Program-made: the position numbers and the translations under genes
Source: Paragonimus westermani
Lineage: Eukaryota; Platyhelminthes; Trematoda; Plagiorchiida; Troglotrematidae
Length of the DNA: 64,000 nt
Assembly (NCBI GenBank): GCA_008508345.1
Contig: QNGE01001713.1
Coordinates: 40,458-104,457, forward strand
Direction of reading: 5' to 3'
Part shown: piece by piece, positions 12,469 through 59,265 of the stretch
Numbering within the stretch: position 1 is the first letter of the stretch
Layout of the letters: every line of letters begins with the position of its first letter
The notes under the pieces: generated by a model
The model's database searches: none
What the model saw: the letters and a program-made list of their open reading frames with translations, nothing else
What the model was told of the DNA's origin: nothing

Positions 12469-12469
12469 T

Positions 12470-21316: not shown

Positions 21317-21619
21317 GGCGTTTTCTTCCGGCGGTTAACGCGAGGTGTCAGTCAATTCTTCCAAAGTCACCGGACACTCAACGAGAACAAGCATGAGGTG
21401 TTCCCCGACTGCTAGTGACGCTTATCCACGAAAGTATGCTCTACTCCGAATCATTGTTCACTTTCGGCAAAGCTCTTAACAAGGTTGTTCACAGTGACAT
21501 CGCATAAACGAGAGTGTCGCATGTGGGAGCAAATCGGGAGCCCTTAAAATGACACGCTGCTTCCTGGCAGTCAACGGAAATGCTGAGCCTGGCATTTTCA
21601 ACCCGTCTTTCAACTGCGC

Positions 21620-31279: not shown

Positions 31280-32090
31280 CAGATTGGAATATTCTCGCTT
31301 GACGTCACAGCCCTCTTCACTGATATCCCACTCAATGAAACGATCGAGTTTCTCGGACAGTATGTTCAGAGTAATGATGTCGACATGGGAATACCTGTAG
31401 AGGACGTGGAGCGGTTAACGTATCGTTGCACATATGACGCTCAGTTTTCAACTCGGTCCATAGAAACGTTCATTTTACCATAGACCCCGATTCACCCGCA
31501 CGTATAGCGTTGCAAGACGTGCTCATGTGTGGTCGCGAGGACGACACGATACAACGGAAGGTGTATCGTAAAGCAAATTGGACGGGTCAGTATACAATCT
31601 GCAGTGGTTTCGTGTCACCAGGACAGAAGAGAAATCTAATCCGATGTCTGATAGACAGGGCCACGAAAACATGTTCAAGCGATACCACTGAGGAGGATAG
31701 ACAGTTCATAGTTGATACACTTGTTGAAAGTGGTTATCCGAAGCAGTTGATTCACAAAAATGTGATGATTAATTTTGAGGTGGAGGAACCACAAACTACG
31801 GACAAAATGTCTGCTTAAATTTTCTTGCCCTTCAATGGTGATGGTGTCTCTGAAGGCGTAATCATGTTACTTAATATGGCAATCAACAAAACATACTTTG
31901 CAGTTCAACTGCGCGTTCAATGTACTCTCAAACCAATGTTGCGCTTCCAGTTTGATGATACATTGCTCGTTTATGCCGCCTATTTTGTTTAGGCCGTCTT
32001 ACCTGGTGATGAAACAGTGAAAACGACCTTGTTTGCTACCCGTTTTTTCTCACGGCTAAATCGGGTGCATTCAAACTATCGGAATATATT
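31280..32090 (+). mobile_element. Penelope-like element with internal RT deletion (plus)
   Basis: Motif A region SLDVTALFTDIPLNETIEFL at about 31,300 is followed almost directly (near 31,460-31,480) by the RT tail (VYRKANWTGQYTI; KRNLIRCLIDRATKTCSSDT), so motifs B and C are deleted. The linker continues as FLPFNGDGVSEGVI. No GIY-YIG is recognisable after 32,090. Confidence 0.75.
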
Positions 32091-39936: not shown

Positions 39937-39962
39937 CTAATTTTTTGAGGCAGCTTTCATTA
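39937..39962 (-). CDS. MEG-B last coding exon, with stop
   Basis: Acceptor gtcggttttattttacag. After a phase-1 join (Val codon) it reads MKAASKN then TAG at 39,939-39,937. Confidence 0.45.
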
Positions 39963-42900
39963 CTGTAAAATAAAACCGACATTATCATCAGAACATCAAT
40001 GAAACAATTTGCAGTCTGTACCAAAGAATTCATTGAAATTCAGTCATTTGCTAAATATTACTTAAAATATGACCTACTGTCAAACGTTTGGCTGTTTATA
40101 CCAGCAAAATATATTGGGTTTATGACCACTGAACTTATCGATTCACTTATATTGTTTTATTTCGAGCTGCAGTCGCATTTCTCTAAATACTTAAATTGCG
40201 ATCCATATAGTCAGTCATTTCCAGATTGTCATTGGCTTCACCCTTATTCAGGTGTTCTATGTACGAGGTCACCTACTAGCTTGATCACAGATTCTGTTTG
40301 TACTTTATTACGAATTATAAGGTGGACTGGATACTGATCACACCAGATCATGTGAAACGATTCGATGATATCTCTTATGATCTGTCATAATTTTGCGCTG
40401 CAAATTTGCTTTGTAACCAAGGCAACCGGAGCGCGGATTGTTAGCAGAACTCGAGTTTCGATAAAACTGAGACACAAGTATCGTGTAGCCTGTCAAGAAG
40501 GGCTGTCCGGAAAGATTCTGGAATCAATAGGTAACGCTTCATTTGTAGCGTTCGCAACCGATAAACTTCAATTAACCACAGCATTCGATAAACCAACGTC
40601 TAGATCACCTGAGCATACTTCAATCTCATATAGGTCGTGCGTTTGTTTCAGATGAGGCAGGTGTGTATTCGACGGAAATTTTCTCTTACCCTCAAGATAC
40701 ACATCAAAGTCTAAAAAAAGCATTGTCAGTAAAGGACAGAAACCGAGTTATTGTCGAAATCCTATAACCCTGTTTTAGTTATCAGTTAACAAAGAAACGT
40801 TTTCCTCATGATGAAAATTTGAAGCCAGCTACCGATCCTATCCTAATGTGGTGTGAGCAAAACTCTTTTGGGACAGAAATCACTTGCTTCTCGGAACAAT
40901 ATATAATCCATTCTGACTACCGAGGCGGGAAAGTTAATTGTTTAGTTCGTTTGTGTATTTTCAACGTTCCAACTGCTTTCCTATAAACATTTTTTTCCTG
41001 CAACTTACGAATCTGCATGGATTGAGCAACTGAGAAGGGTGAATATCAGTGAATGACAGTTAACACGGCTTTTGTACGGCCCGTAGACAAAACTATTCCT
41101 AGTTATAACTCAATGTTGCGCACACCAAACATTTAGTGACCAACCAGGCATTATTCGAATGAATGATAATTGTAATATGTACAACTTTGCCAGACGATTG
41201 TTTTTACAGGTACAGCACCCTGAGGCAATCGGTTGGAATTTTTGTCTGTGAACTTGCATCATTTGCCAATATCTGGTCACCTATCAATGTGTCTTTCGTG
41301 TCATGTTTTACTAAACTAGTCCCCCCGTATGACTTGCTGCCTACCGATGTAGACAGACGGAGCACCCGTACGTCCAGTGCCTAAGATAAAGTGTTCTAAT
41401 ACTTCGGTTTGCTTTAGTAGGCAATAAACGAAGTTCCGGAATCCCCATGGTGGAGAGTAAAATTGATCAGGAAAATTTACCTACTGATCGTTTAGTCAGT
41501 CAATTATTGATCAGAAATTGATGTGCTGTGGCGGACGGCTGACACGTTCAAGGACAAAGATCCCCTCTCGAAACAAGAAAAGTTATGAACATCAAGAATA
41601 TTCGTGAGTGACTAGAAAATCGTTTTTTGTTCAGTGTCGGTTCAAATGGAGTGACAAAAGCGGTTTTCGAAAAGACGATCTTGAGTTTGCTAAAAAGCGA
41701 CAAGCGAAATATCGTTGGATCTTCAGGATACGAGTGTGATTGTTGCAAAAATTTATTGGAGATCAAGCCCAATTGCTGTCCTTTTCACTCACTCTGCCGC
41801 AGGTGTTCAGACACTCCTTGAAAGATAATGCAAAGAACGCACTGTTGAACAGATCATCACACTGGTGAAGGCATGTAGTTTACCAAGAGCACTCCAGCCT
41901 AAGTTAAACTAGAACGCTACTCTTAATCCAACATAACAAATTTACACAAAAAGCTTATATCATCTGTAGTGCTTGCACTCCGGTGCACATTAGTGATGAA
42001 TGATATACTTACTGGTGAATTCTTCCTTATCGTTAACTAGAAAAATATTAATGGTTTTAAACGGGCCCTGAGGTCTAACACTAAACAACATGTAATGATC
42101 TCTCCATACGTTGTAAATATTCTCCAAATAGTGAGCAATATTAAAATTCCACATTTTTCAACCAGCACTGAAGATGAGTTTGATCGTCGTACATTCAATA
42201 AATGATCCGTAGTGAAATATGCGCATTCAATCCACTTAAAAAATGTTCCACTAAACTCAGTCGCGCTATCACAATTCCCGTTTTATGATAAGGTGCGCAA
42301 TTTCAAGTGTATTTATTTCAGTAGGTGTATCGTTCATTGCTCACCAAATGAAGTTGTATTAAAGCAAACTTACGTTGCTTTAAATGCCTGTTCACTAGAA
42401 TTGCAAGGAGATACGGCACATTCTTCTGTTCGATAGTATCTCATTGCTCAATGTATATATAAATATATTCGAATATTCAATTCAGTCCGTTTTTCCGATT
42501 AACCGCATTGACTCACCTGCCACGTAGTCCTCCGGGACTGCCGAATGAGAGTATGACAAAAGGTAAACGATTTTGGTATGTCATCAGAAACTAACATATT
42601 AAGATGAGCTGATCTACAGACTATGTTCGTCACCGTCTTGTGTTTGATATTTTGATATCGTCCCAGTACATCGCAATGTGACTGAATTCACATTGGAATG
42701 ATAGTTTTGTTGTTTGCAGCGAAAAAACTTCAGTTGAAGAAAAATTGGGATACATTTAGTCCATTTCACATCCGAACTGTCAGTTGTTTGAAGTAAACTT
42801 TGTCTAATAAGCTGAATGTAGCATACTAATCCACTATGCCTAATGCTGTGGTTCATGTTGTGTAAATATTGTGATATTTCCGTTATGAACGTAAAGTTCG

Positions 42901-45900
42901 ACCGATTTCGCCCGAGTGCGTTTAGGTCGCAACAGTTGTGGATCACGTCTTTTGAGGACACTGTGAGATATGTGATTGCCCTTCTGCCTGGTTGTCACTC
43001 GTGGGTGTGCATGCGCTGCTGACGAGGACTCGCATTGCAACTATGTATGTTGGTACAATCTAGATACGAAGAAATGTACCACTTTCCACTGGACGGTGGC
43101 ATTTGCCCACTGCAAAGTATGGATGCTTGCTCGTAACTACTTGAGAAATAAGGGTATTTTCGATTACATACCACCTAACTGACATTCGTTCTGCTGCTTA
43201 GCAATGACCAGTCAACATGATGCACTCACTGGTAGTTATGAAGGACAATTTCACAGACCGCAGTAAAACTAGGCCTAGTGGCTGGGTTAAATGTGAATGC
43301 CAGTTAGCTTTCGTGGATTCGACGTGATAGGCAGACATCTCTTTCTGGCTTCCACCTCCTAGCCATTTCTGAAAGTGTGAAGCAATCTTGCAAACAAGAA
43401 GAAATACGTGTCGATTACCCTTGTCGTTCTTGTTATAACAATGTCAACCGTAAGAACACAGAACACGAAACATGAGTGCGCACACTGCATTCCTGCCACC
43501 CACTATGGAACCGAAAGGAACGAGTCATGTCAACCACAAAGGTGACCAGTCTGACAAACAGTCGATCGAGAAGCAAAACCCATTGGTCCGATTTGACCAA
43601 ACCACCAGCGGCTTATTAGACGGACAGTTACAAATGAGTGATTGGACAAAAGTACGTCGATTGTTTGCAACCACGGGAACTAATCCGGAAAATTTCCCGC
43701 TTCATTAAGGCAAACTGGTGAGCTAGCATCAAAATACTTTCTGAAGTAAGCAACTAAACGACTGACTCGATGACCAACATGAGTAGATCTGCGAAGTTCA
43801 CATGTGTGTGAAGTGGCCCAGGCTGTCAGTATTTTGGAGGTTCACACACAGAAAAGTTCTGGCGACTTCGTGTGTGCACCGACTAATAATAAATGTTGGT
43901 GTCTGTTTGAGGGACCTGCACATTCCAAATGAAGCCGAAATTACGGTCTGCAGCTTTCTCGACAGTCCCAGCACTTCCTGTTAGACTACAGAACTAGGAT
44001 GAAGAGACCCCAAGAAGTTCGTTATCGTACGGTACTGACGGATTGACGGAGTCTTCACCAGCCTGTATTTGCATACATCGACCGGGAGTGTCACCAGAAT
44101 AGCGAAGATACTCCCTCGTATATCTGAAGTGAATTTTGGCGACATGTTTCCGTCTACCACTGTTCTCGCCTTCTTACACAGGAGTGCAATTCCGACAACT
44201 GGACAGATTTGAATACAGTCTGAATTCAATAGCACATGGATTAGTCCGACTTAAGTAATCCAGCCTATATCTGGCGAATAGAACCTCAGGTCATCAACAA
44301 TGTGGCATTCAGCATCAGCATATGAATTACTAGGTGGAAACCCATAGTTTAATTGTCCCACACGTGGAGTTCGTGTTTCTTGGACGTTCCGTGTTACACT
44401 GTCTGTTTTCCTGTATGGTAAGCCACTTTATTGGTCTTCTAAAATGAACACAATATCACAGGCTGTGTCCAATCGACCGTGTAGTTTCGTGTCATTCAGT
44501 GAAGTTCTGAATTACCTTCTGTTGTTCGAACAACGAATAAAACCGTGAATTGGCTATCTTGTTTGGGTCAACTTTCTTTAGGTTCTCGAAAACGCCTGTA
44601 TGAAGCTACTTTTCTACAGAAAACCCCTTAATATCCATGTTTTCCGTAGCTTCGGCAAACATGATTTCACAATGCAAACACACGTACAACAACCTCCTAA
44701 ATAATTGCATTGCTTTTTTGATGATCCAACGATGTTTTATTCGCTGTTGCGCTTGTTTTCCCTCAGTCGAGTGGCATTGCTTCAGAGATATTAATCGCTG
44801 ACACTCAGCTAAGACAGTCCGCAATGTCATTTCCAACTTCTCTTCTGAATGCGATCAGATATGTGTACGCTTATCCTCATCGGATGCTGACTTGAGTTAA
44901 CACACAAAACTTAACATTAAAAATTAAACACTGCTGAGATTTGACAAGTGGAGTTCTTTCCATTCACGAGTGATCACAGCAGAGACTATTGAATTTCACC
45001 AGTTTATTAATTACTGGGTTGAAAGCAATCGAACACTATACAGTGTCTGTGAATGAGCATTCACGTGGGTTTCTTGGCGGATTACAGTTACAAATCTGAG
45101 CGCGTTCCGTTGAGCGAAGTCTGCGTAAAAACGATCGGATTAAAACATTGTCATGTAAGTTCACTGCGTCCTCCGTTATTTGGACTTCGTAACACCCGAT
45201 TCAGACCTCGGACTTGATCTCGCTGTCAGGGTGATTAAATAGCAATGAACCGGCTGTCTACAACAACGGGAGCACCTTCGCGACAGTTCTGTGGAGTGTA
45301 TAATTTGATTAACCTCGTAGTGTGGCAACCACTGACAATTTTTGCGGTAATTATTCGTGTGAGCTAACGTTGTGTTATCAGACGAATTTTGCCCTCCAGA
45401 AACAACCTCTCATGTCTGGTGTTGTCGAGGGTACGTCGGTGACAAAAACTTCCAACACCGGCTACGAACTGCTTTGTGCCCCTTGAAATCTACTCCAACA
45501 CTTCGAGAGTCACATCGCAAGAACTTTTCAACAGCTTGAATTCGCCTATTTTTCTACCATTTTTGATTACCAGACGGAAACGATCCTCACTACCGATCAA
45601 TGGAGAGCATTAATAATTAAGCAGACATAGCATTTCTTTGATATGAGACGACGGATCCGGTTAGCAATGCTATTGGGGGCCATGTTGGTATGGCGAATGC
45701 TTCCTTTCGAAGGCAGATGCAGCAGTTCGGTAATAAATTAAACAAGCTTATATATTTTGCCAACCGAATACGTACATACTTACTCCCAAAGGGTGCTGAA
45801 TACATATATGCATAGAGTTGACCCATCTTTCATTTTTCTTCGTCAGTTGTTGAAAGAAGTGGGAAACTTTTCCCATTTAAACCATTGGTCCCACGTTGGT

Positions 45901-48434
45901 TTAAACTATTCAGGCCTGCATCAAGTCCAAATAATTGTTTCCATCATACGATCAACATAGCCACGCTAAACACCATGTTTACGGCAATCTGAAGGAGTAT
46001 TTTAAGACAAGTGTACCCTTCCTGAACACTGTACATTTATCTACTGAAACGCTAATTGGTAAGCGGAAATACATTTCGTTATAAAAGTCTGGGTCGCTTA
46101 CTTTCAGCATAATATTTAACCGCTGTAAAGTGATTTCAGGTTGAAGAACACCAATGAGGCTTCATATTCCATGTATTGCGCCCAAATGTTAGGAAGCTGT
46201 ACTTGATTTTTCTCAGTGTTTTACTGAAATATCACCAATTACTTACTATCAATTATGTATCTGTCATCTGAAAATCAGGTAAAACAGCTGAATGCATGAA
46301 ATGAACCTCGAGTTCGATTGATGTGACACCTGAGTATTCAATATTCAATAGTCAATGTATTTTTCACGTTAGCCTATTAAAGGGAAGTATATATCTCCTG
46401 GTGCAATAGTTGTCTTGAAAACTGAGGAAAAGTGGAGGAAATCGAACGATTATGTAGAAGAGGAAATCTTCGTTATGTGTTGGGCAAAGTCCAAACCCAC
46501 TGCCTTTTCACTTCAAGCCGAGTAAAGCCTCTTTTTTCACTCGTTAAACATATTGACAATCCTGAAAGCATCACTGTTGAATTAATATAATGTGTGCGTT
46601 CAGTTCACAGAGATTCAACAGCTACTTGTTAACACCGTTCGGGATATTGCAGCGGGCGTTCCGGAGTAAATGACCATTATATTAAACCGTCGTTGTATTT
46701 AGCTCTTGGCTTGGTTTCACAGTTTTGCGCTGAGCTCATCCACAACTGAGATCACTGGTGGTTTCCACATGTCTCTTGATAAAGAGGAGGTTGCATATAT
46801 TTCCGTCAATGAAGACTACAGTTAACGTACTAGTGATATAGGTGAAGTGATGTGGACGCCAGAGGTTAACACCGCTGATATGTGTTACTTCCGGAGTTAT
46901 TTTTCAGAGTAGGCCTCAAACGGGATGTGATGCTGAGAATGGCAAAATCCATTTGGAAACCAAGGTGACAGTGGTTAGCAAAATAGCAAACTGTGTGATG
47001 AAGAAGGTGAGGCGACCGTTATCACGTCATCGTTCAGAAGGGTTAGATGAATTGCGCGCAGGGATGACATTAGTTGTAGGTGAATGACTACTGCGGGATC
47101 TCATCGACGTCACGTTGGTAGTCAATGAACAATAGTAAATTCTACTCAACGGAATATTAGTCCACACTTTCCGAAGAGATCTAGTGTCAACAAAATCCAC
47201 ACAAGTAATATTTGGTTAGAAGGGAAGCAAAAGCTTGGAAAAATAGTTTGAAATACATGGATGGCATGCCGTCTACACTCATTTTCCGCTCGTGTGTAAT
47301 TTCATAATGAAACACTGAGTGTTAGACATTCTTGGAGATCGAAATTAAATTCAGTTAGCCTTGTCGCGCTTATCCCCATGATCCTGTGCAATAAATCGGT
47401 TGTTCTGTTTAGTCACACATCAGACCAATTCTATTGCATTTAGCCGGCTCGTCCTTGACGGCTTATTGCAGCCAAACATAGTCCTCTACACGGCGAACGT
47501 AAACAAACTGAGACTTGTTTCTTGTACTCGAACGTGTTGTTCATGTTAACAGTACCACGCTTTCAGTGAATTGACCTTGTTCTGATATTCGATATCGTTG
47601 GTTATACATGCATCGCTGAAAGTTCGTCGAAAGGGTGTACTTTGAACAATCAAAAGTAGGTGTATGTATTGCCAGAATACTCACATCTGTCGGATGTGAG
47701 GGTCGACGAATTGACTGGAAACACGTGTGTTCAAAATTAAATGGTGCACAATCACTGATAAACAGATTGGGAATAACACAACGTTACGATCAAGTTGTAA
47801 TACTCTACGTTTCAACCACCTCGGGAGGCCTTCCTCAGGAGTGTTGTAATCGAAATCACTACAAAATGTTATTATGCAAGATGAACGCTTTTACTATACT
47901 GTGGTAAATCGTCAGTGAAGATGATCTGCAGAACGAACGTAACAATGCATGACAACACTCTCATACCAGTTCGGTGACTGACAGCATGAAGTTGCACATC
48001 GTAAACTAGTATCAGTGAACGAATTCATTCTACTTTCTGAGGATTATGACGGATGACTGTGGACACCTGATTGGGTTAACTAGTAGACAGCTTTCAGGTC
48101 AGATTGCAAGTCACATTCTTGTATGAGTATTTATCGTGGGGTTAATGTTCAGTTTTGAAATTGCATTCAACGCTCTTTTATTGAGCGTGTTGGACTGAAA
48201 CTAAGAAGTGTGAAGAAAAGCAATTAAGCCACATTCGAATTTCTCCGCTAAGCTTACTTCTCTTGAGGTATGGAGTAACTATGGATTACGTAAAACATGT
48301 CATGGTGAACCGCGCAAAATTATTTCACTTTTGAGAAAGCTTATTGTAACAATACGGAAATGGTGATGAAGAGGCTATATGAAACGCTCCAAAATAACTA
48401 TGTTAATTACTTTCATGCTTCAACTGCTGATGAA
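39937..48434 (-). CDS. MEG-B: micro-exon gene (5' end not found)
   Basis: A chain of 12 internal exons of 12, 21, 24 or 30 bp on the minus strand, then a 26-bp last coding exon with a TAG stop. Each has an AG acceptor, usually with a pyrimidine tract, and a donor, mostly GTAAGT, GTGAGT, GTAAGA or GTAAGC. All exon lengths are multiples of three, every intron is phase 1, and every junction codon joins without a stop. The joined frame, about 95 codons, reads as a mixed-charge, helix-rich soluble protein. Symmetric micro-exons are the hallmark of the micro-exon genes of parasitic flatworms, whose short secreted products come from pharyngeal/oesophageal tissue and can be varied by exon skipping. 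The signal-peptide exon was not found, so secretion is inferred only from the gene class. Introns hold a dispersed repeat (46.6-47.5 kb) and a gag fragment (44.6-45.2 kb). Exons are listed separately; a 39-bp exon (43,230-43,268) is tentative. Confidence 0.6.
40690..40710 (-). CDS. MEG-B micro-exon, 21 bp
   Basis: Acceptor caatgctttttttag, donor AGG|GTAAGA. Phase 1 reading FDVYLE. Confidence 0.6.
41009..41029 (-). CDS. MEG-B micro-exon, 21 bp
   Basis: Acceptor gatattcacccttctcag, donor TTC|GTAAGT. Phase 1 reading AQSMQI. Confidence 0.6.
41635..41802 (+). CDS. Candidate exon encoding half a RING-type zinc finger
   Basis: Plus-strand acceptor (atcgttttttgttcag) opens a 168-bp exon, phase 2 to phase 2, ending at a CGCAG|GTGTTC donor. 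Residues near the end, CDCCKNLLEIKPNCCPFHSL followed by CRRC, fit the first half of a RING finger: C-x2-C, a loop, C-x2-H-x2-C-x2-C. The N-terminal part is helical (VTKAVFEKTILSLLKSDKR). It lies on the opposite strand within a MEG-B intron. Other exons were not found. RING identity is inference from spacing. Confidence 0.38.
42013..42036 (-). CDS. MEG-B micro-exon, 24 bp
   Basis: Acceptor ttaatatttttctag, donor CCA|GTAAGTAT. Phase 1 reading NDKEEFT. Confidence 0.6.
42374..42394 (-). CDS. MEG-B micro-exon, 21 bp
   Basis: Acceptor atctccttgcaattctag, donor AAC|GTAAGT. Phase 1 reading NRHLKQ; phase 0 starts with a stop. The intron from the previous exon is 122 bp. Confidence 0.6.
42517..42537 (-). 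CDS. MEG-B micro-exon, 21 bp
   Basis: Acceptor catactctcattcggcag, donor GCAG|GTGAGT. Phase 1 reading PEDYVA. Confidence 0.6.
42976..43182 (+). CDS. Candidate cysteine-rich exon, unknown
   Basis: Plus frame of 68 codons ending in a stop. The cysteines (DSHCNYVCWYNLDTKKCTTF) are spaced somewhat like PAN/apple domains. Splice sites are not convincing. Confidence 0.22.
   Translation: MPFCLVVTRGCACAADEDSHCNYVCWYNLDTKKCTTFHWTVAFAHCKVWMLARNYLRNKGIFDYIPPN
43230..43268 (-). CDS. MEG-B tentative 39-bp exon
   Basis: Strong donor CCA|GTGAGT, but the acceptor (cactaggcctag) has no pyrimidine tract. Phase 1 is open (LRSVKLSFITT). The chain also joins without it. Confidence 0.25.
43472..43708 (+). CDS. 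Candidate small ORF (78 codons)
   Basis: ATG to stop, hydrophilic peptide (KGDQSDKQSIEKQNPLVRF). No family recognised; no splice sites required. It lies in an intron of MEG-B on the opposite strand. Confidence 0.25.
   Translation: MSAHTAFLPPTMEPKGTSHVNHKGDQSDKQSIEKQNPLVRFDQTTSGLLDGQLQMSDWTKVRRLFATTGTNPENFPLH
44178..44198 (-). CDS. MEG-B micro-exon, 21 bp
   Basis: Acceptor tattcaaatctgtccag, donor TGT|GTAAGA. Phase 1 reading VGIALL (hydrophobic). The same donor also ends an ATG-started frame (from 44,235) in the same phase, so an alternative first exon is possible. Confidence 0.5.
44600..45240 (-). mobile_element. Gypsy-type gag fragment inside a MEG-B intron
   Basis: Minus frames match the C-terminal half of flatworm Gypsy gag: NPRE..SFTDTV near 45,060, LKSASDEDKRTHI near 44,870, and MTLRTVLAECQRLISLKQCH near 44,790-44,830 (typically TLxxVxEECQRLxxLKxD). 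Frameshifts and stops throughout. It lies between the 12-bp (45,784) and 21-bp (44,198) exons. Confidence 0.6.
45784..45795 (-). CDS. MEG-B micro-exon, 12 bp
   Basis: Acceptor catatatgtattcag, donor GGA|GTAAGTAT. Phase 1 reading PFG. Confidence 0.5.
46102..46122 (-). CDS. MEG-B micro-exon, 21 bp
   Basis: Acceptor gaaatcactttacag, donor AAA|GTAAGC. Phase 1 reading VKYYAE. The intron to the previous exon is 124 bp. Confidence 0.55.
46247..46267 (-). CDS. MEG-B micro-exon, 21 bp
   Basis: Excellent acceptor tgttttacctgattttcag and donor ATA|GTAAGTAA. Phase 1 reading DRYIID; phase 0 would contain a stop. Confidence 0.6.
46645..47540 (+). repeat. Unclassified dispersed repeat, copy B
   Basis: Shares its order of blocks with copy A at 29.7-30.5 kb (ggagtaaatgaccattata, tcgttgtatttagctcttgg and agggatgacatta blocks), with deletions. 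It lies inside a MEG-B intron. Confidence 0.65.
47685..47714 (-). CDS. MEG-B micro-exon, 30 bp
   Basis: Acceptor acacacgtgtttccag, donor GAT|GTGAGTAT. Phase 1 reading NSSTLTSDR. Confidence 0.5.
48258..48278 (-). CDS. MEG-B micro-exon, 21 bp
   Basis: Acceptor ttttacgtaatccatag, donor GAA|GTAAGC. Phase 1 reading TPYLKR; junction codon with the 24-bp exon is Ile. Confidence 0.5.
48411..48434 (-). CDS. MEG-B micro-exon, 24 bp
   Basis: Acceptor tttttgacatttcag, donor AAA|GTAATT (weak). Phase 1 reading HQQLKHE. Most 5' exon found with fair confidence. Confidence 0.45.
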
Positions 48435-48449: not shown

Positions 48450-49765
48450 TGGGGAAGAACGTTGTAAGCCAATTTGTCTAATATCTTCTTTGTCCCCTAT
48501 GAGACATTTGTTAATTTCAATTTGAAAACGCAAGTCAAATATATCGTAGCACGCGATGAATATCTTGCGAACATCCCGCTTAAACTTATCAGGATCAAAC
48601 TAGTATAAAACCCACTCACATAAGAATGTGAATCACGCGGAAATGTATCGCTTTCACTAAGGTACAGGTTGTTCGGTTGATCACGGTCAGTGGACTGTGG
48701 CATGAGTGTCGTTCTGTGACTAGATAGAGGAGGACAACAATGTTTGTTACCTTTTACGCATCAAAAATGAATCGCTTCGTCCCATTTGATTTGAGTCCGA
48801 CAGCTTAACAAATGTAGATCACATGTTGATTTGGTTTGTTTGCTCTCTGTCATTGAACTCGATTGCGCGATTGCGTCACATTACACTCATTACTCAAAGA
48901 GTGTCTGTTGTCCGTTACAGTGAAACGGTGTTGCGTTAACGGAACGTACTAACCGAAATAACGTGGATAAGGAACTCTGACTGGCGTGGGCCTTGCTTTA
49001 ATGTCCATAAGTATGCTACCCAAAGTCGCAAGTGGAGCCAATTGTGAAGAGGCAGAACGAGCCTACCTGTCAGTTGCTAGTCCACTGGCATACTTGGAAA
49101 TCACGCATACTGCTAATCCTTACTGTCAAGACGAGTGTCACAGACAAATACGTAGTGTGAATGTGAGAATTTTGCTCATAACTTTTTCAACCGTCAAGTG
49201 TGTAGCTTTCCTTAACGTCTGTCGTCGGCAGTAAGTAACCTTACCGCCTTCAGGTTGGCGGTATGTTTCACCACAACGAACGACTAAAGTGGAACGATTC
49301 AGTTTGCAAGTGAGATGACAGCCCAAAAACATTCTTATTTTTACGACTGAGTTTCAGACTACTGACTGGGATGTGTCCACAGACGTTAGAATTTGACGGC
49401 ATCCCAGCGGGTGAATAGAGAGTCTAGTCTTCTGTAGACAAAACGTGTGTTTTCGCTTTCGAATTACTCTGCTAATTTGATCAAATTGGCACGGCGTGAA
49501 CGCATTTATGCAGAACCCAACGAATTTGGTTAGTGGAACTGCAAATGACCAATTTGGAGGCAAATGATCAGCTCACGACCCACCTATGCAAACGCAGCAT
49601 GCCTAATTATTGCCAAGCAGGGGCGTCTACTGCTCTTAACAGTTGCACTGAGTCAAGGAGCATATTTCGGCTTAGACGTAGAGCAGACAAGAGTGTAACC
49701 GCGTGATGTAATCGGGTGTAAATTCAGAAATAGATAGCAGACGGTCAAAATTCCCGGCTGCTGGA
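48450..49765. other. Interval between MEG-A and MEG-B
   Basis: Should contain the 5' end of MEG-B. Candidates seen but not called: a 12-bp segment at about 49,110-49,121 (strong acceptor, weak donor) and an ATG-started frame at 48,703 that runs to a GTGAGT donor in the wrong phase (phase 0). Confidence 0.35.
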
Positions 49766-49995: not shown

Positions 49996-52900
49996 CTTGA
50001 ATGAAGAGTTTCGCATCCGTTGCGTAACAAAGTATTGGAGATTGTAACGGATGGCAAAGCCAGAACCACTCACGCAGTGGCGCGCACAATAAACACCTTC
50101 ATACCACAAACCATTTGCCTTGGCAACAAATCACCCATGACTATCTAGGCACATTGTGTGTGAAATTGCATTGCAAGTTTTTGGCAGACTTCACAACCTC
50201 AGACGAAGCAGTTCAGTCTTTACTTGATAGATTGCCGCGGAGTGTTCCCGATTGAAACATTGTATGTTCTGACACTAATGACTTTACCTTTGAAATTCTC
50301 TGAATAAATCACATGTGTTTTAAATATATTTTTTGTTTCATGCGTTGACGTGAGCATACTTCAGACTGATCTCAATATCCCCTAGGGATGGTGCTATTAT
50401 CCACACAGCAAATAATCTCATATAATTTTAAGCTAAGCAGCAGTGGGAAGACATTGCATATTCACCTCGTAATGAAGTGAACGTTGTGTTGATCAGTCGA
50501 ATCAATGAATGGCTGTCCAACTTACCACGTTCTAGGTCATCGGCTACGAAGAAGCGGAGCAAAATGAAAGATTTGTCTGGTGTTTTGGTCTCTGCTTGTT
50601 GTATCACAAATTGTGCGAATCTGTCATTTACAATAACAGCGCATACTTACTAGGATTTGCTCCATCTGAAAATGTATACAGACACGGTACATTAGCCATT
50701 AGAAAGTGTATGTTACAAGATTAGTTTGCAAACTGTCGTTACCAGACATAGGGATGTCGCTTACAAGAGTCCAAATACTGTGTTTCTTCGATGTAGGAAA
50801 ATAGAATGTTTTTGTTAATTAATGTCTCATCGTATGATAATGCATTGAAGAACTAGGTTAATTTAAAATTACTCACCAAATTTAACGAAGTTTATCCATA
50901 CTGCAATTAAAAATAAACACAAGATAAGTGATTACACGTTACCTGTATTTACACAATCAACATTCAGGCCATGGCGTTCTCCTGATTCAGGTGACATTCA
51001 CCAGTGTTCACAAAACTACGAACTTACATTCATCCCATACTATTTTTGTGATAAGAACCGAGTGTTTTGTTCCCATAAGTTTTACGGCATATCATGATCA
51101 TCGAATCATATGAGGTATAGAATTACAGTTCTCATCCTTGTCAAACATAAATACGACCCAAATTATAGTTCTCTGTTAACAACAGCGGACCATTGATTTC
51201 ACTGAATGGGAAAGCAGCAGTCGATGTCCAGCTTCGGTCGTGCCTAATGTGAGGTCAATGGCGCAGTGGTTAACACGGTTGCCTCATGATTGGAATGTCC
51301 GGAGTTCAAATCCCGGCCGTGGCAAGGATATGCACTACTGACGAGCTCNNNNNNNNNNNNNNNNNNNNNNNNNNNNNNNNNNNNNNNNNNNNNNNNNNNN
51401 NNNNNNNNNNNNNNNNNNNNNNNNNNNNNNNNNNNNNNNNNNNNNNNNNNNNNNNNNNNNNNNNNNNNNNNNNNNNNNNNNNNNNNNNNNNNNNNNNNNN
51501 NNNNNNNNNNNNNNNNNNNNNNNNNNNNNNNNNNNNNNNNNNNNNNNNNNNNNNNNNNNNNNNNNNNNNNNNNNNNNNNNNNNNNNNNNNNNNNNNNNNN
51601 NNNNNNNNNNNNNNNNNNNNNNNNNNNNNNNNNNNNNNNNNNNNNNNNNNNNNNNNNNNNNNNNNNNNNNNNNNNNNNNNNNNNNNNNNNNNNNNNNNNN
51701 NNNNNNNNNNNNNNNNNNNNNNNNNNNNNNNNNNNNNNNNNNNNNNNNNNNNNNNNNNNNNNNNNNNNNNNNNNNNNNNNNNNNNNNNNNNNNNNNNNNN
51801 NNNNNNNNNNNNNNNNNNNNNNNNNNNNNNNNNNNNNNNNNNNNNNNNNNNNNNNNNNNNNNNNNNNNNNNNNNNNNNNNNNNNNNNNNNNNNNNNNNNN
51901 NNNNNNNNNNNNNNNNNNNNNNNNNNNNNNNNNNNNNNNNNNNNNNNNNNNNNNNNNNNNNNNNNNNNNNNNNNNNNNNNNNNNNNNNNNNNNNNNNNNN
52001 NNNNNNNNNNNNNNNNNNNNNNNNNNNNNNNNNNNNNNNNNNNNNNNNNNNNNNNNNNNNNNNNNNNNNNNNNNNNNNNNNNNNNNNNNNNNNNNNNNNN
52101 NNNNNNNNNNNNNNNNNNNNNNNNNNNNNNNNNNNNNNNNNNNNNNNNNNNNNNNNNNNNNNNNNNNNNNNNNNNNNNNNNNNNNNNNNNNNNNNNNNNN
52201 NNNNNNNNNNNNNNNNNNNNNNNNNNNNNNNNNNNNNNNNNNNNNNNNNNNNNNNNNNNNNNNNNNNNNNNNNNNNNNNNNNNNNNNNNNNNNNCTCGCG
52301 ACCACGCAATAGTTGCTCGTTGAACGCTCGGACGCCCGCCCGAACCGTATTCCTCCAGGCCGTCCATTTCAACGCCAACGTGAAAGACTTACCTGCACAA
52401 CATCCTGGTATCTCCGCTTCTGACCACCGGGATTTCGCTTACCTGACTTCAAATGTCCACACAATAACTGCTTCGGGATACGGTCATCGCCCATCCGACG
52501 GACGTGACCGAGCCAACGGAGCTGATTCAGCATCAACATGGCTTCCATCCCGTCCATGTCCGCTCGCCCCAGTACCTCAGTGTTCAAGACGTCCGAAAGC
52601 AGCACTAGCGTTCCTCACCACAATATACACAAACACACACAAACACACATACATACAAGATTACATTCAGTCTCATGACTATACGCCTACGCTGGTTATT
52701 TGGCCACATGAATTGTTGAGCACACAAGCCACTAAACAGTTTTTGGAATATCCAGTTACAAGATGCGCATAATATGAATTCTAGGCAATTTGGAAACAGT
52801 GCGACGACTGAACTCAACTTGATATGCGGCAAAATTGTTGATCACTTTCATACTAACGCCATGAATCGGAGTGGATTGTGGCAAGTGGAAATCAGGGTCT

Positions 52901-55900
52901 CTCCCAAGTGTTTGATGTGTTTGAGTTCCGTTCACATTCGGCGGACGTGCTCCCAGTCAAACTAGTTGTTTAATACCGCCAGTGCATCGTTCGCTTTGTG
53001 TCTAAAGGTGATTTGGACGAGTAGGAGACAAATGTCACTTGTTCACAAAAGGGTCAATGAAGGGAGTTTTATGTAGACACTCAGTAAGATGTGATAACTA
53101 CCAAGATAATATGGATTGTGTGGGAGAAGCAGACTCAACACTGCTCCGGAATTCTGCGTTTTCGACAACTGATATGGACGACGAACAGTTTATTGAACTC
53201 CACCTCTAATATAGAGTACTAGGATATGTTTCGTTGGGTTTACGTGGTACCAGAAGAGAGCTGACTATAAGTGATTAGAGGGGAAGCGCTCTTGAAATCG
53301 TGCAAACTGATTTAATATTGAAAAGTCAAATGCTCGGAAAAATTCCACAGCTGACCGAATATCGCGAAAGTCAAACAAAATTCTCGGAATAAAATGAAAG
53401 ATTCCGTGGGTTAACAATAGGTAAAGAGAAAACCGTTACGGAAGAATGAAGGAGAAATCGTTGGAAATGAAGAGGTAGCCCAGAAAACGGAAGAAGGAGA
53501 TAGAAAAAATCAATAGGAAAGAAGATGTTTCAAGGAGAAACACCGTAAGCAGATATGGAAAGGGCACACGAAAGTTAATATCACGTTCTGGAGTAGATTT
53601 AAGAAGAAAATTGGGGAGATCACGAGAAATCAATCTGAGAGATATATTCAAAACAAACAAACGGAAAGGACAACAGTTTGAATTCACATGCAATGTGCAA
53701 CGAATGTGAAAACCGTTGATCAATCTCAAACGGGTGTAGATTTACTTACCATCATGTACTGGAGGAGCATGGAGAGATAATTTCCGACGAAAGTTTGAGA
53801 TGAATCTCAGATATTTGATCATAACATTGTATTCGGGATTATAGCTACGTGTGTGAGCATGCTGTTAAAATGCGGTGAACATGCACGCCACAATGACTAC
53901 GAGCATCATCAATGTGCGGTTGTGGGAATGGAACGGGGGAGAACATTGTTGAATGATGAGAGCACAGTTTGAACATTGGCCGCAATCTGATGGAGTACAA
54001 TGTATGCGGCTAGTCGCATCAACATGTTACATTCACGTCACTTCATCGAGTTGGACCGGACTAGCGTTTGAATTCACATGCAATGTGTTTCGAATGTGCA
54101 AACCGTTGATCGTTCTCAACCGGGAGTATGGTAACATACCATTCTGTTGTTTGGCAGCTTGGAAATGAAATGTGGAAATTTTCGTGAAACGAATCTGAGA
54201 GATCTGTTCAGAACATCGTATTCGGAACAATAGCTACGTGTGTGAGCATGCTGTTAAAATGCGGTGAACATGCACGCCACAATGACTGCGAGCATCATCA
54301 ATGTGCGGTTGTGGGAATGGAACGGGGGAGAACATTGTTGAATGATGAGAGCACAGTTTGAACATTGGCCGCAATCTGATGGAGTACAATGTATGCGGCT
54401 AGTCGCATCAACATGTTACATTCACGTCACTTCATCGAGTTGGACCGGACTAGCGTTTGAATTCACATGCAATGTGTTTCGAATGTGCAAACCGTTGATC
54501 GTTCTCAAACGGGAGTATGGTAACATACCATTCTGTTGTTTGGCAGCTTGGAAATGAAATGTGGAAATTTTCGTGAAACGAATCTGAGAGATCTGTTCAG
54601 AACATCGTATTCGGAACAATAGCTACGTGTGTGAGCATGCTGTTAAAATGCGGTGAACATGCACGCCACAATGACTGCGAGCATCATCAATGTGCGGTTG
54701 TGGGAATGGAACGGGGGAGAACATTGTTGAATGATGAGAGCACAGTTTGAACATTGGCCGCAATCTGATGGAGTACAATGTATGCGGCTAGTCGCATCAA
54801 CATGTTACATTCACGTCACTTCATCGAGTTGGACCGGACTAGCGTTTGAATTCACATGCAATGTGTTTCGAATGTGCAAACCGTTGATCGTTCTCAAACG
54901 GGAGTATGGTAACATACCATTCTGTTGTTTGGCAGCTTGGAAATGAAATGTGGAAATTTTCGTGAAACGAATCTGAGAGATCTGTTCAGAACATCGTATT
55001 CGGAACAATAGCTACGTGTGTGAGCATGCTGTTAAAATGCGGTGAACATGCACGCCACAATGACTGCGAGCATCATCAATGTGCGGTTGTGGGAATGGAA
55101 CGGGGGAGAACATTGTTGAATGATGAGAGCACAGTTTGAACATTGGCCGCAATCTGATGGAGTACAATGTATGCGGCTAGTCGCATCAACATGTTACATT
55201 CACGTCACTTCATCGAGTTGGACCGGACTAGCGTTTGAATTCACATGCAATGTGTTTCGAATGTGCAAACCGTTGATCGTTCTCAAACGGGAGTATGGTA
55301 ACATACCATTCTGTTGTTTGGCAGCTTGGAAATGAAATGTGGAAATTTTCGTGAAACGAATCTGAGAGATCTGTTCAGAACATCGTATTCGGAACAATAG
55401 CTACGTGTGTGAGCATGCTGTTAAAATGCGGTGAACATGCACGCCACAATGACTGCGAGCATCATCAATGTGCGGTTGTGGGAATGGAACGGGGGAGAAC
55501 ATTGTTGAATGATGAGAGCACAGTTTGAACATTGGCCGCAATCTGATGGAGTACAATGTATGCGGCTAGTCGCATCAACATGTTACATTCACGTCACTTC
55601 ATCGAGTTGGACCGGACTAGCGTTTGAATTCACATGCAATGTGTTTCGAATGTGCAAACCGTTGATCGTTCTCAAACGGGAGTATGGTAACATACCATTC
55701 TGTTGTTTGGCAGCTTGGAAATGAAATGTGGAAATTTTCGTGAAACGAATCTGAGAGATCTGTTCAGAACATCGTATTCGGAACAATAGCTACGTGTGTG
55801 AGCATGCTGTTAAAATGCGGTGAACATGCACGCCACAATGACTGCGAGCATCATCAATGTGCGGTTGTGGGAATGGAACGGGGGAGAACAGTGTTGAATG

Positions 55901-57087
55901 ATGAGAGCACAGTGTGAACATTGGCCGCAATCTGATGGAGTACAATGTATGCGGCTAGTCGCATCAACATGTTACATTCACGTCACTTCATCGAGTTGGA
56001 CCGGACTAGCGTTTAAATTCACATGCAATTTGCAAACCACTGATCGTTCTCAAACGGGTTCCGGTTATTACTACGTCATATTCCGAACGATCATGCGAAG
56101 ATTATTTGCCTCGTAGGATTGAAAATATTCTGACAGATCTGTTCAGAACATCTTATTCGGAACAATAGGTACGTGTGTGAGCATGCTGTTAAAATGCGGT
56201 GAACATGCACGCCACAATGACTGCGAGCATCATCAATTTGCGGTTGTGGGAATGGAACGGGGGAGAATAGTGATGAATGTTGATTGCACAGTTTGAACAT
56301 TGGCCGCAATCTGATGGTGTACAATGTATGCGGCTAGTCGCATCAACATGTTACATTCGCGTTACTTCATAAATTTTTAGATGAATTTGTTTCTCTTTCT
56401 CTCTCAAATTAATTCTTCTCTTTTCATGACATCTTTCAATTTTATGTAATTTTTCTCACTTAGGTAGTTTTTGGCTGCAAGTGAAAAATTTTCTCAATCA
56501 ATTTCTGTTTACTTCCTTCACTTTTTTCAATTTGTCTTTATTTTGATTCATATGTCTCTTGTTTATTCTATTGGGACTCATTTCTGTCATACATTTTTGC
56601 GATCATTTTTATAATTTCATATTCTTGCTTTTTTCATTGTTGCCATTTTTTATTTATAATAATAATGAAATTTTTACTTCTCTCCTTCTCTCTCGTTGTG
56701 CCCGTTTTTCACTCACCTGAATATTGTTCTTTAATCCGAGAGGAAGTATGATTTAAATCGGTTGTTAGTTGCAAATTACATTGTACAATTTGGTAAGTTG
56801 CTAAGCCTACTGATAAAATTACTTAAAGTTGCACGCCTGGTTTATTGTTATGTTGAAACAGGCGGCAGCAATATTGAATGATGTTAGCATATTCAGTAGT
56901 TTCGGGGGAATGTTCTGAGGCCCCATGTATTGTGCACAGTGTTTTACAATATTATGTCCCCAGATGGTTATTTCATTACTAACAGTAAATTTTCATTCTC
57001 CCCCCAATTACTGGAAATAGCCCTGCGAGATTGTATTAGGTTTTCTACCTAGAATTTACTCACCCACGTAATCTTCTTCGTCTGCAT
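49772..57087 (-). CDS. MEG-A: micro-exon gene (5' end not found)
   Basis: From 57,087 downward: exons of 24, 12 and 15 bp; five 18-bp exons, one per unit of the 389-bp satellite; then 9, 18, 12, 24, 21, 15, 18 and 12 bp; and a 224-bp terminal exon with a stop at 49,772. All micro-exons are multiples of three, all introns are phase 1, and all junction codons are sense. The product is hydrophilic and acidic at both ends, with a possible Gln/Ala-rich repeat from the satellite exons. The terminal exon encodes about 74 residues. By class this should be a secreted micro-exon-gene protein; no signal-peptide exon was found. The 51.2-53.7 kb intron contains repeat copy C, a LINE end, a 946-base gap and a SINE, so exons may be hidden in the gap. 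Confidence 0.58.
50288..50299 (-). CDS. MEG-A micro-exon, 12 bp
   Basis: Good acceptor catgtgatttattcag, donor AAAG|GTAAAG. Phase 1 reading NFK. Confidence 0.52.
50526..50543 (-). CDS. MEG-A micro-exon, 18 bp
   Basis: Excellent acceptor ttgctccgcttcttcgtag and donor GTG|GTAAGT. Phase 1 reading DDLER; phases 0 and 2 both contain a stop. Confidence 0.62.
50651..50665 (-). CDS. MEG-A micro-exon, 15 bp
   Basis: Excellent acceptor ctgtatacattttcag and donor CTA|GTAAGTAT. Phase 1 reading GANP. Confidence 0.62.
50765..50785 (-). CDS. MEG-A micro-exon, 21 bp
   Basis: Acceptor attttcctacatcgaag, donor CTT|GTAAGC. Phase 1 reading TQYLDS. An alternative acceptor 8 bp downstream would break the frame. 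Confidence 0.5.
50877..50900 (-). CDS. MEG-A micro-exon, 24 bp
   Basis: Excellent acceptor gtttatttttaattgcag and donor TTTG|GTGAGT. Phase 1 reading WINFVKF; other phases are less good (phase 2 contains a stop). Confidence 0.6.
51028..51039 (-). CDS. MEG-A micro-exon, 12 bp
   Basis: Acceptor ttatcacaaaaatag (moderate), donor AAT|GTAAGT. Phase 1 reading WDE. Confidence 0.45.
51155..51172 (-). CDS. MEG-A tentative micro-exon, 18 bp
   Basis: Acceptor ccgctgttgttaacag is good; donor GTC|GTATTT is weak. Phase 1 reading NYNLG. Confidence 0.3.
51246..51348 (+). repeat. tRNA-derived SINE, second family
   Basis: Box A-like ATGGCGCAGTGGTTAACACG and box B-like GAGTTCAAATCCC in the right order, with an acceptor-like end. 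Its tail runs into the assembly gap. A relic copy is at 59,889. Confidence 0.65.
51349..52294. other. Assembly gap (946 N)
   Basis: Run of N. Sequence on both sides is repetitive (SINE on the left, LINE 3' end on the right), which probably caused the gap. Open frames that cross it are artefacts. Confidence 0.99.
52295..52612 (-). mobile_element. Non-LTR retrotransposon 3' fragment (minus), running into the gap
   Basis: Minus frames: LNTEVLGRADMDGMEAMLML, NQLRWLGHVRRMGDDRIPKQ, LLCGHLKSGKRNPGGQKRRY, then WTAWRNTVRAGVRAFNEQLL. This matches the 3' half of the 24.5-26.2 kb element. The rest lies in the gap. Confidence 0.75.
52617..52662. repeat. Short ACA-rich simple repeat
   Basis: An acacaaacacacacaaacac tract directly after the LINE fragment. 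Confidence 0.6.
53050..53470 (+). repeat. Unclassified dispersed repeat, copy C
   Basis: About 400 bp highly similar to 30,540-30,960 (copy A), sharing gctccggaattctgcgtttt and tcaaatgctcggaaaaattc. It directly adjoins the 389-bp satellite. Confidence 0.75.
53750..53758 (-). CDS. MEG-A micro-exon, 9 bp, in the diverged satellite copy
   Basis: Excellent acceptor tctccatgctcctccag and donor ATG|GTAAGTAA. Phase 1 reading HD. It sits at the place homologous to the 18-bp exon of the other units, which supports both calls. Confidence 0.48.
54140..54157 (-). CDS. MEG-A satellite micro-exon, 18 bp (unit 1)
   Basis: Identical to the exon at 55,696-55,713. Confidence 0.38.
54529..54546 (-). CDS. MEG-A satellite micro-exon, 18 bp (unit 2)
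   Basis: Identical to the exon at 55,696-55,713. Confidence 0.38.
54918..54935 (-). CDS. MEG-A satellite micro-exon, 18 bp (unit 3)
   Basis: Identical to the exon at 55,696-55,713. Confidence 0.38.
55307..55324 (-). CDS. MEG-A satellite micro-exon, 18 bp (unit 4)
   Basis: Identical to the exon at 55,696-55,713, 389 bp away. Confidence 0.38.
55696..55713 (-). CDS. MEG-A satellite micro-exon, 18 bp (unit 5)
   Basis: Acceptor ccacatttcatttccaag, donor ATG|GTATGT. Phase 1 reading AKQQN; joined to a copy of itself it gives Ala at the junction. Same sequence in four other units. Confidence 0.38.
56460..56474 (-). CDS. MEG-A micro-exon, 15 bp
   Basis: Excellent acceptor aatttttcacttgcag, donor TAA|GTGAGA. 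Phase 1 reading KNYL. Confidence 0.55.
   Translation of the reverse strand, partial: PKTT
56717..56728 (-). CDS. MEG-A micro-exon, 12 bp
   Basis: Acceptor ttcctctcggattaaag, donor TCAG|GTGAGTG. Phase 1 reading QYS. Confidence 0.45.
57064..57087 (-). CDS. MEG-A micro-exon, 24 bp
   Basis: Excellent acceptor ttttatacccatttatccag and donor TGG|GTGAGTAA. Phase 1 reading ADEEDYV. Most 5' exon found. Confidence 0.58.
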
Positions 57088-57099: not shown

Positions 57100-59265
57100 G
57101 TATAAAACTCTTTTTTCTCGATCCAATTATTTTGTGCGATTTTAAATTTTTGTGAAATTTTTCCGAAGAAATGTTTTATCGTTCATATTATGTGGAAGTG
57201 CACAGCAAATCTGCCTGCAGAAATATGATATTGTGTAGACGAAAATAGAATGCTGATTGACGAAGCGTTTAGTGATTTTACCTTTTACGAACTTTTTGGT
57301 GTATTACGCTTTCTGTTCGATCTCTTTCAAGGTGAATTTTTCGTCTTTTTTTACATGTGTACGAACAATTTTGCATTTCAAACTGATTTCTTTGACAAGT
57401 TTGAATTTTCAATATACTGAAGATGGTAACAGTAACACAATCCAGAACGCTTACAAACTTGACTGAGTGTTACGAATTTCTGTTGGAACGAACAGCCTGA
57501 GGACCGGATGGCTGTTAATTTTGGAGCTCCGTTGCTTCTGAACTAACTGACTGAATATTCTCGTGTCAAATGACGCAACCAGATTAGCAGCTTTTTCAAC
57601 CTGATCACCCAGTGTGCTATGCTTTATCGCAAATACCACATGGTCAAAAACTTGTTATCAACCTGCTCTAGGCACCGATCTTTGCTTTACGTATAGAGAT
57701 CTTTCTGGCTATTCGTGTTACAGTGTTCGCTCAAGGTACGGGGTATTATGGCGGAGTAAAATATAGAGAAATATGGGCAGCATTTTCAGCTGAAAAAATG
57801 AAAGTAGTCTAGCTACTTCTGAATAAATAACACCATTTCTTCAAACCTTAAACTCTGTGTTATAATATGCCAGTTGTATCTAGCCACACCATGATTGGAG
57901 ACAGCTTAGAAACCGTTGTGTTGTCACTGTTGACATGATACATGCACAGATTTATCCATTGGTTTGTAGTTAATTGTACACAAACAAACGTAGTCACATA
58001 ATACACCATACCATCTAAATCGTCTGACGCATTATACAATGAAGAAGCACAAAGTACTGACGTGTCGTGGAAAGGTGAACACATAGATTAGGCTAAGTGA
58101 CAGTGTGAGGCTTCGCAAAGTTCCAATATTTATTATCTAACCAACGTCTACCCACATGTTTTATTCTTTCTGCGAAAAACGTGTGTTCGATTTGTTTGTT
58201 TGTCATCCGAATGTCCTCAGCTTTTTTACGACACTCAGATGCGGTAAACTTTAGCCGAATGCTCAAATCGATCATAATGCACTCGCAACAGTATAACACC
58301 GATTGTGTGTTACTGGACAGTTTAGATTTTGTATACAACAGCATATAATCTTCACATCAATATCGAAGCTCGATTGGTACTTGACCATTTCCTAGTTAGC
58401 ACGTAACAACCGAATAATCTCAGCTTCTATCGTTGAATAGTGAAATCTCCAAACGACGATAACGGAATCCAAAAACAATATAGCCATCTGAAACACTGAA
58501 TCTATCTGCCCCAAGAAATTTGTTGTTGCAATGCTTTCTAAGATAGGGATTGATGACACGGATTAATGCATTGCAAACTGAAATACATTGACACATTTTA
58601 TAATTGAAAACAGTATTCGCAAAACTAAATATTGAAGGCGGTTAATTTTTCTACACAACACGAAAGGGAGTTTCTAGAAATTAAACACACGTTCGGTTAA
58701 TGTGATCTACGACATAATTTTTGTTCGACCAACAAACAGGAAGACATTTATAGGGTTTATAACTTTGTACACTACAACAAAATGCCGAATGCAGCAGCAA
58801 GTGCTTTGAGCAATATTAGTTTGTCATTAACAGTATGCTTATTCTGATATGTTGCGGACTGTTGGGGGGTGCGTCAAGATAGAGATGATGAGATCCACGG
58901 ATAGACAATCAGCGACTTGATGAAAGAAGACTGACTACATTCAAAGCAATATTGGAAGTTTTAATCTACTTTAGATTAATGAGCAAAGATTACTTGAAAC
59001 GGAAAGACTATTAAACACAAATCAAAACCACATATTAACCAGTATGTTAACATTCTTTTCAAATATAAATTCTCTCAAATGTCGGTTTGATGACGGCTAT
59101 TGTGGATCACATTAAACATAAAACAACTTACATAGCTCGACTCTTCCCCAAGAAACCATCAACAGCAACATAGTCGGAAGAACGAGTTTCATGCCGGGAA
59201 ATTCTCTCATGTTTTGAAGACGATAGTGCATGGTGACAGCACCTTAATTTATACGGATTAGTATT
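57100..59265. other. AT-rich, no gene called
   Basis: Probable intron or 5' flank of MEG-A. Minus frames at 58,093-58,344 (basic, KKAEDIRMTNKQIEHTFF) and 57,860-58,084 have no clear splice sites. Confidence 0.35.

Follow-up and report, generated by a model that had tools for sequence, protein, structure and literature searches.

A predicted micro-exon gene (MEG), likely of a fluke, probably occupies the minus strand between 59.2 and 39.9 kb of the 64,000-nucleotide stretch of DNA analysed here (the window), and the region at 39.9–48.45 kb is probably the 3′ half of that gene, which would encode a secreted and mostly helical protein. As modelled, the gene covers about 19.3 kb in 30 exons, 28 of which, all internal and between 9 and 39 nt long, are consecutive micro-exons; the joined frame of 648 nt would give 215 residues and a stop. 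The initial annotation had presented the 3′ region, under the name MEG-B, as a gene of its own. Its boundary is probably wrong, since upstream of it there are a leader-like exon (59,192–59,132) and more symmetric micro-exons in phase 1; rather than being a separate gene, it is more likely the 3′ half of a single, larger MEG for a secreted protein.

On this strand and in this stretch, splice-site pairs enclosing segments with a length divisible by three strongly exceed chance. The minus strand at 39.5–48.9 kb holds 16 GTRAG donors, eight with a YAG exactly 21 nt upstream. Within 39.9–48.45 kb this spacing occurs at 8 of 15 donors, compared with 6 of the 195 donors found elsewhere in the window, both strands together (Fisher 2e-7). 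The length of 21 was noticed post hoc, and the fairer figure is that of a shuffle test: when the dinucleotides of the region were shuffled 150 times, no single length was counted more than five times. Splice sites were scored with a generic consensus matrix with a softened weight at donor position −1, and a donor was taken to fit if an acceptor partner gave a length divisible by three that was open in phase 1. All nine donors scoring at least 4 fit in this way, compared with 7 of 67 controls (Fisher 8e-8); a tenth, at 42,345 with a score of 3.99, fails to fit, and lowering the cut-off to 3 gives 11 fitting donors of 17. The controls, which exclude 59.3–64 kb on both strands and 39.0–39.9 kb, comprise the plus strand of the same stretches (1/6 and 0/3 fitting), the minus strand at 1–39 kb (1/27) and the plus strand at 1–39 kb (5/31), a rate close to the one in ten that had been guessed at the outset. 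When exons are chained, the best chain in phase 1 reaches 41.2, whereas shuffled sequence averages 5.3 (standard deviation 3.9, maximum 16.8) and the plus strand of the region gives 10.3.

The observation in the initial annotation was confirmed. Where it had listed at least 12 minus-strand segments of 12–30 bp, 13 were recovered between 48,434 and 40,690, each a multiple of three and open in phase 1; the joined frame, put at about 95 codons, has 101; and the 26-bp last exon (39,962–39,937) does end in a stop, TAG. Where it had described eight good GTRAG donors at 40–44.3 kb, nearly all fitting, nine were counted and seven fit; those at 43,230 and 42,345 are without a scoring acceptor at a multiple of three.

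Phase 1 is favoured, though exons so short do not decide it. The best chains in phases 0 and 2 score 31.7 and 24.6. The eight YAG-21-GTRAG pairs are open 8, 6 and 5 times in phases 1, 0 and 2, respectively, and in a stricter scan of the minus strand at 36–51.3 kb, where 9 of 12 pairs had a length divisible by three, the corresponding counts were 9, 5 and 4. With the five identical exons of a tandem array (described below) counted once, leaving 24 unique exons among the 28 internal ones, stops number 0 in phase 1, 7 in phase 0 and 15 in phase 2, the zero being partly built in because exons were picked as open in phase 1.

The first exon listed earlier, at 48,434, starts at an acceptor and so needs an exon upstream. 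A scan of both strands for hydrophobic frames running from an ATG to a donor points to 59,192–59,132, whose donor score of 5.2 is the highest among the phase-1 candidates listed and whose hydrophobic core leads us to predict a signal-peptide-like first exon; a phase-2 candidate in the same scan scores 6.4, using the donor of the micro-exon at 42,517. The gene start should probably be shifted upstream to 59.2 kb. Across the minus strand at 39.9–59.3 kb, all nine pairs scoring at least 7.4 (57,064; 56,460; 53,750; 50,877; 50,651; 50,526; 46,247; 42,517; 41,009) have lengths divisible by three and no stop in phase 1. The best upstream chain in phase 1 reaches 45.0, a value to which the five identical array exons contribute, whereas phase-1 shuffles average 2.7 and do not exceed 12.0; in phases 0 and 2 the best upstream chains score 25.6 and 24.0. 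Upstream donors scoring at least 4 fit in 6 of 14 cases (P = 0.008), and unique upstream donors scoring at least 3 in 8 of 18, compared with 13 of 137 controls (P = 0.0006). The predicted parts, all on the minus strand, are as follows.

59246..59253 (minus): TATA-like box, TATAAATT, 5′ of the predicted first exon; seen in the sequence, function putative
59,210 and 59,231 (minus): in-frame ATGs upstream of the first-exon start
59132..59192 (minus): predicted first coding exon of 61 nt, resembling a signal peptide and stopping one base into a codon (phase 1), at donor TAT|gtaagt (donor score 5.2)
57064..57087 (minus): predicted 24-nt micro-exon, score 7.6; an 18-nt form (57,064–57,081) would use a second CAG
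56717..56728 (minus): doubtful 12-nt micro-exon, donor strong (6.4), acceptor weak (−0.5)
56460..56474 (minus): predicted 15-nt micro-exon, score 8.3
55696..55713 (minus): candidate 18-nt exon, array copy 1, AAG acceptor, score 3.6
55307..55324 (minus): candidate 18-nt exon, array copy 2, identical to copy 1
54918..54935 (minus): candidate 18-nt exon, array copy 3, identical to copy 1
54529..54546 (minus): candidate 18-nt exon, array copy 4, identical to copy 1
54140..54157 (minus): candidate 18-nt exon, array copy 5, identical to copy 1
53750..53758 (minus): predicted 9-nt micro-exon in a diverged array-edge copy, strong splice sites, score 9.5
50877..50900 (minus): predicted 24-nt micro-exon, score 10.6, the highest listed for the minus strand at 36–64 kb
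50765..50785 (minus): predicted 21-nt micro-exon, AAG acceptor, score 3.9
50651..50665 (minus): predicted 15-nt micro-exon, score 7.4
50526..50543 (minus): predicted 18-nt micro-exon, score 9.5
50288..50299 (minus): predicted 12-nt micro-exon, modest score of 4.1
49245..49283 (minus): doubtful 39-nt exon, open in phase 1, score 5.3
48411..48434 (minus): predicted 24-nt micro-exon, score 5.4, first of the MEG-B part
48258..48278 (minus): predicted 21-nt micro-exon
47685..47714 (minus): predicted 30-nt micro-exon, its encoded peptide having one N-x-S/T sequon
46247..46267 (minus): predicted 21-nt micro-exon, score 8.7
46102..46122 (minus): predicted 21-nt micro-exon
45784..45795 (minus): predicted 12-nt micro-exon
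44178..44198 (minus): predicted 21-nt micro-exon, modest score of 4.1
42517..42537 (minus): predicted 21-nt micro-exon, score 9.8
42374..42394 (minus): predicted 21-nt micro-exon
42013..42036 (minus): predicted 24-nt micro-exon
41793..41816 (minus): predicted 24-nt micro-exon, AAG acceptor, modest score of 4.2; a 21-nt form would use a GAG
41009..41029 (minus): predicted 21-nt micro-exon
40690..40710 (minus): predicted 21-nt micro-exon
39937..39962 (minus): predicted last coding stretch, 26 bp to TAG, acceptor score 4.7, the fourth highest of 24 listed

Two members of the best chains were kept out of the model, 57,496–57,455 (42 nt) because it overlaps a 25-nt alternative and 40,916–40,884 (33 nt) because its donor is weak.

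The tandem array lies inside the predicted gene at 56,370–53,802 and consists of 6.6 copies of a 389-bp unit with 96% matches, the outermost copies being diverged. An identical 18-nt candidate exon recurs in five of the units (AAG acceptor, GTATGT donor, 3.6 each), and each of these exons, if used, would add an identical six residues; they are among the least certain of the model. At 39.5–60 kb, direct repeat families of at least 24 nt were reported only in the array and at its edges, so that recent exon copying is not seen elsewhere in that stretch. Tandemly repeated 81-base exons were reportedly described in Schistosoma mansoni by Davis and colleagues in 1988, and are said to belong to antigen 10.3, or MEG-4. 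The two cases are alike in having repeated exons within one gene, whereas the repeated element here is a candidate 18-nt exon in each 389-bp unit.

The initial annotation did not recognise its peptide among the proteins of known MEGs, and searches of a protein database (which includes Schistosoma and other fluke proteins), the PDB and Pfam likewise found no relative. The 3′ part of the peptide gave no candidate in the protein database, and the joined peptide gave no PDB match up to E = 5 and no Pfam family above its cut-off; DUF7281 (E = 0.0095), Noc2 (E = 0.013) and DUF6080 (E = 0.23), all below their family cut-offs, were set aside as noise of composition or helix content. That the product would be a helical protein, as first proposed, has some support from its periodicity. 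The mean hydrophobic moment of the 48.4–39.9 kb part peaks at 100–110 degrees, and the periodicity at 100 degrees gives P = 0.009 for this part, 0.0018 from 50.9 kb on, and 0.023 when the 48.4–39.9 kb part is compared with chains of random phase-1-open intron pieces. The signal is moderate, and the maximum moment is ordinary. The modal exon of 21 nt corresponds to seven residues, and the nine 21-nt exons have their strongest hydrophobicity at columns 1 and 5 and a polar column 3, which is the 3–4 spacing of a heptad. Cyclic rotation of each exon shows the shared heptad register to be non-random (P = 0.003 by Fauchere-Pliska values, 0.014 by Kyte-Doolittle). Random rotation of every exon in the 3′ half weakens the helical signal (P = 0.0115), but it survives when the exons are put in another order or when about 40% of them are removed, and each exon would thus carry the register itself. 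We regard the heptad pattern as moderate and largely independent support for coding and, short of proof, as the basis for the idea of a modular helix. A tyrosine–hydrophobic motif (eight Y-phi pairs) gave P = 0.053 against amino-acid shuffles, or 0.032 with His counted as Tyr, and was unused as evidence.

Several observations weigh against the model. The chains in the other two phases also score above the phase-1 shuffles, both at 39.9–48.45 kb (31.7 and 24.6) and upstream (25.6 and 24.0). Partners are lacking for 8 of the 14 strong upstream donors, one of these eight being the donor of the predicted first exon, and the model uses just 9 of the 24 acceptors scoring at least 3.4 at 39.9–59.3 kb. 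The strong acceptor-like sites at 57,789, 57,214 and 46,421 (minus) have no partner among the model donors and possibly mark missed or alternative exons. Several predicted exons score near background (3.6 for the array copies, 3.9 at 50,765, 4.1 at 50,288 and 44,178, 4.2 at 41,793), and an assembly gap of 946 Ns (51,349–52,294) falls within the predicted gene. The sequence from the stop to 38,500 contains no AATAAA, and a second phase-1 leader-like open reading frame, of low complexity and with a donor score of 4.2, lies at 52,709–52,619. At the protein level, the whole 215-residue peptide has no relative at E ≤ 1 among 2,512 word-sharing candidates limited to 118–376 residues; taken by itself, the upstream piece of 42 residues shows no significant helical periodicity (P = 0.14); one of the two wrong frames reaches P = 0.046 (the other 0.159); and the maximum hydrophobic moment is not unusual (P = 0.175).

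A less likely alternative, though the strongest of those considered, is that two MEGs lie next to each other on the same strand, or that there is one shorter gene: the gene starting at 59.2 kb would end before 48.4 kb, and the second would have another first exon, for example 52,709–52,619 or one missed by the scan. The former is a hydrophobic frame that opens with an ATG and ends in phase 1, and as a leader candidate it keeps a shorter gene possible, but it is largely a TG-rich simple repeat and adjoins a retroelement-like fragment. The chain is weakest at 50.3–48.4 kb, where it depends on one doubtful 39-nt exon between introns of about 1.0 and 0.8 kb, yet no phase-1 leader candidate is listed for this interval, and the nearby open reading frames at 50,074 and 50,360 end in phase 2. 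AATAAA motifs at 53,194 and 49,864 would suit an earlier gene end, and MEGs are described as often clustered (PMC10526429, PMC4350168); on the other side, phase 1 is common to the model exons on either side of the interval.

It is rather unlikely that the strongest pairs, while mostly real micro-exons, belong to a conventional gene with long exons outside the window or missed, or to a decayed relic that is unexpressed. The weak sites at some predicted exons and the lack of an AATAAA near the predicted 3′ end would agree with this, as would the fact that the gene is predicted from DNA alone. Against it stand the leader-like exon, in the same phase and with a strong donor, and a 3′ end at which a good acceptor is followed by a stop. 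A relic would be expected to have stops in its strongest pairs, but the nine pairs at 7.4 or above have none in phase 1. The one long frame scanned here (42,614–42,994, minus) has no Pfam match above cut-off. A chance alignment of splice-like sites picked by eye is barely credible: short acceptor–donor pairs are common in any DNA, as the fitting control donors illustrate, but the GTRAG spacing, the donor-fit test and the shuffles, none of which in 150 reaches the observed pattern, come close to refuting it.

The reading as a symmetric micro-exon gene is well supported by these statistics of spacing, donor fit and shuffling, and the model, drawn from the DNA sequence, is supported as a MEG by the structural criteria given in PMC7653826. 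The minimum for the class is seven exons; 30 are predicted here, 14 of them in the 48.4–39.9 kb part. As in the schistosome MEGs (MEG-1 to MEG-32), a 5′ exon predicted to encode a signal peptide would be followed by many symmetric micro-exons, and exons of at most 36 nt with a length divisible by three hold 522 of the 648 predicted coding bases (81%), compared with about 80% in exons of 6–36 bp in schistosome MEGs (PMC5825161). The predicted small secreted product also has counterparts there, some with amphipathic helices (PMC4671649). The modal exon differs, at 21 nt here and a reported 15 bp in S. mansoni, and so does the size, with up to 28 micro-exons and 215 residues here compared with 10–20 short exons in the schistosome genes, whose longest protein has 189 residues (PMC10526429). 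The structure would fit the MEG class, but the sequence joins no recognised MEG family. The database search gave no similarity to the named families 1–32, a result obtained without direct comparison to any MEG sequence and from a database not checked for each of these families, and the motif FL-phi-phi-F-X6-W-p-(K/H/R), described as following the signal peptide in all S. mansoni MEGs (PMC10526429), was not seen by eye in the predicted peptide. Tapeworm MEGs, from Echinococcus multilocularis and Hymenolepis microstoma, share the structural definition (PMC7653826) but belong to a different flatworm class; the leader motif of one H. microstoma family, the only tapeworm sequence compared, differs from the leader at 59.2 kb. 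SmVAL-6 resembles the model in that part of the gene consists of very small symmetrical exons (PMC4350168), but it is a VAL gene, and the joined peptide here has no VAL or other Pfam domain above cut-off.

Elsewhere in the window, the open reading frame at 21,587–22,300 (plus) encodes a reverse transcriptase, which we take to be that of a Penelope-type retroelement. It has 50 protein matches at E ≤ 1e-5, many of them unnamed, including Dicrocoelium dendriticum (49% identity over 76% of the query), Paragonimus kellicotti (63% over 37%), Echinostoma caproni (37% over 82%) and Schistosoma or Trichobilharzia species (39–42%); tapeworms and a shrimp also matched. What looks like a fragment of a Penelope-type reverse transcriptase lies at 31,438–31,818 (plus) and by eye corresponds roughly to the C-terminal part of P0001. 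A frame at 52.3–52.6 kb, flanking the assembly gap, resembles the end of an RTE-type retroelement, and a similar frame occurs at 17,110–17,511 (plus); three donors scoring at least 4 near 52.4–52.6 kb are without a partner. On the minus strand, 11,950–12,480 holds a 176-residue frame opening near an ATG-started hydrophobic leader. Its spacing is reminiscent of C-type-lectin-like domains, and no Pfam match was found for it at E ≤ 1. A tRNA-Asn (gtt) gene lies at 7,354–7,434 (minus), and a low-complexity, Asp-rich open frame with an 18-bp repeat at 3,957–4,463 (plus). The plus strand at 8–24 kb, where pairs at a multiple of three are in some excess (11/17 and 8/16), was considered as the site of another MEG, but the idea was dropped, as no phase is preferred; the 19 pairs listed are open in phases 0, 1 and 2 in 14, 13 and 12 cases. 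Outside Ns the whole window has a GC content of 41.9%, compared with 34–37% in three schistosomatids; the same table gives about 44% for Fasciola, Clonorchis and Opisthorchis and 43% for the tapeworm Schistocephalus (PMC6739440). This composition and the reverse-transcriptase matches suggest that the DNA comes from a non-schistosome fluke, a tapeworm being less likely.

In the proposed model of a single gene, splicing of the signal-peptide exon, as many as 28 symmetric micro-exons of 9–39 nt in phase 1 and a short last exon would give a 215-residue pre-protein. With all introns in phase 1 and all internal exons a multiple of three, skipping of exons, singly or in groups, would keep the frame and could yield many related secreted isoforms. 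Only 8 of the 435 forward junctions between model exons would create a stop, and when the 28 internal exons are skipped one at a time, a stop arises with exon 2 alone. A 21-nt exon would supply seven residues, or about two helical turns, in a common register, which suggests that skipping would alter the length and surface of the helix while the hydrophobic face of an amphipathic helix is kept. The analogy of schistosome MEG proteins suggests that the isoforms are likely exported to meet host tissue or cells; alternative splicing, export by signal peptide and host contact are all carried over from schistosome MEGs (PMC5825161, PMC4671649, PMC8293314). A bolder version, which we offer tentatively, is that of a giant MEG of a non-schistosome fluke in which the 21-nt exon equals one heptad, with exon ends at the same heptad position, so that splicing would build secreted amphipathic or coiled-coil helices combinatorially, length and surface varying and the hydrophobic face staying fixed, while the 389-bp array would add hexapeptide repeats exon by exon.

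MEGs have been described from schistosomes and tapeworms, and one review holds that they seem restricted to schistosomes (PMC8293314). Searches of transcript databases of Fasciolidae, Opisthorchiidae and cestodes are reported to have found no orthologues of schistosome MEG-4, -8 and -9 (PMC5825161), and in the excerpts of the literature matches listed we recognised neither a MEG in a non-schistosome fluke nor micro-exons of heptad size. Tiny exons are noted as a difficulty for RNA-sequencing aligners and gene finders (PMC7653826). If the model is true, a fluke that is probably not a schistosome would have a long MEG that was found from DNA alone, which would suggest that annotation misses such genes because these programs skip tiny exons. 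If the heptad register also holds, exon size would be a design rule, under which skipping an exon keeps both the periodicity of the protein and the reading frame.

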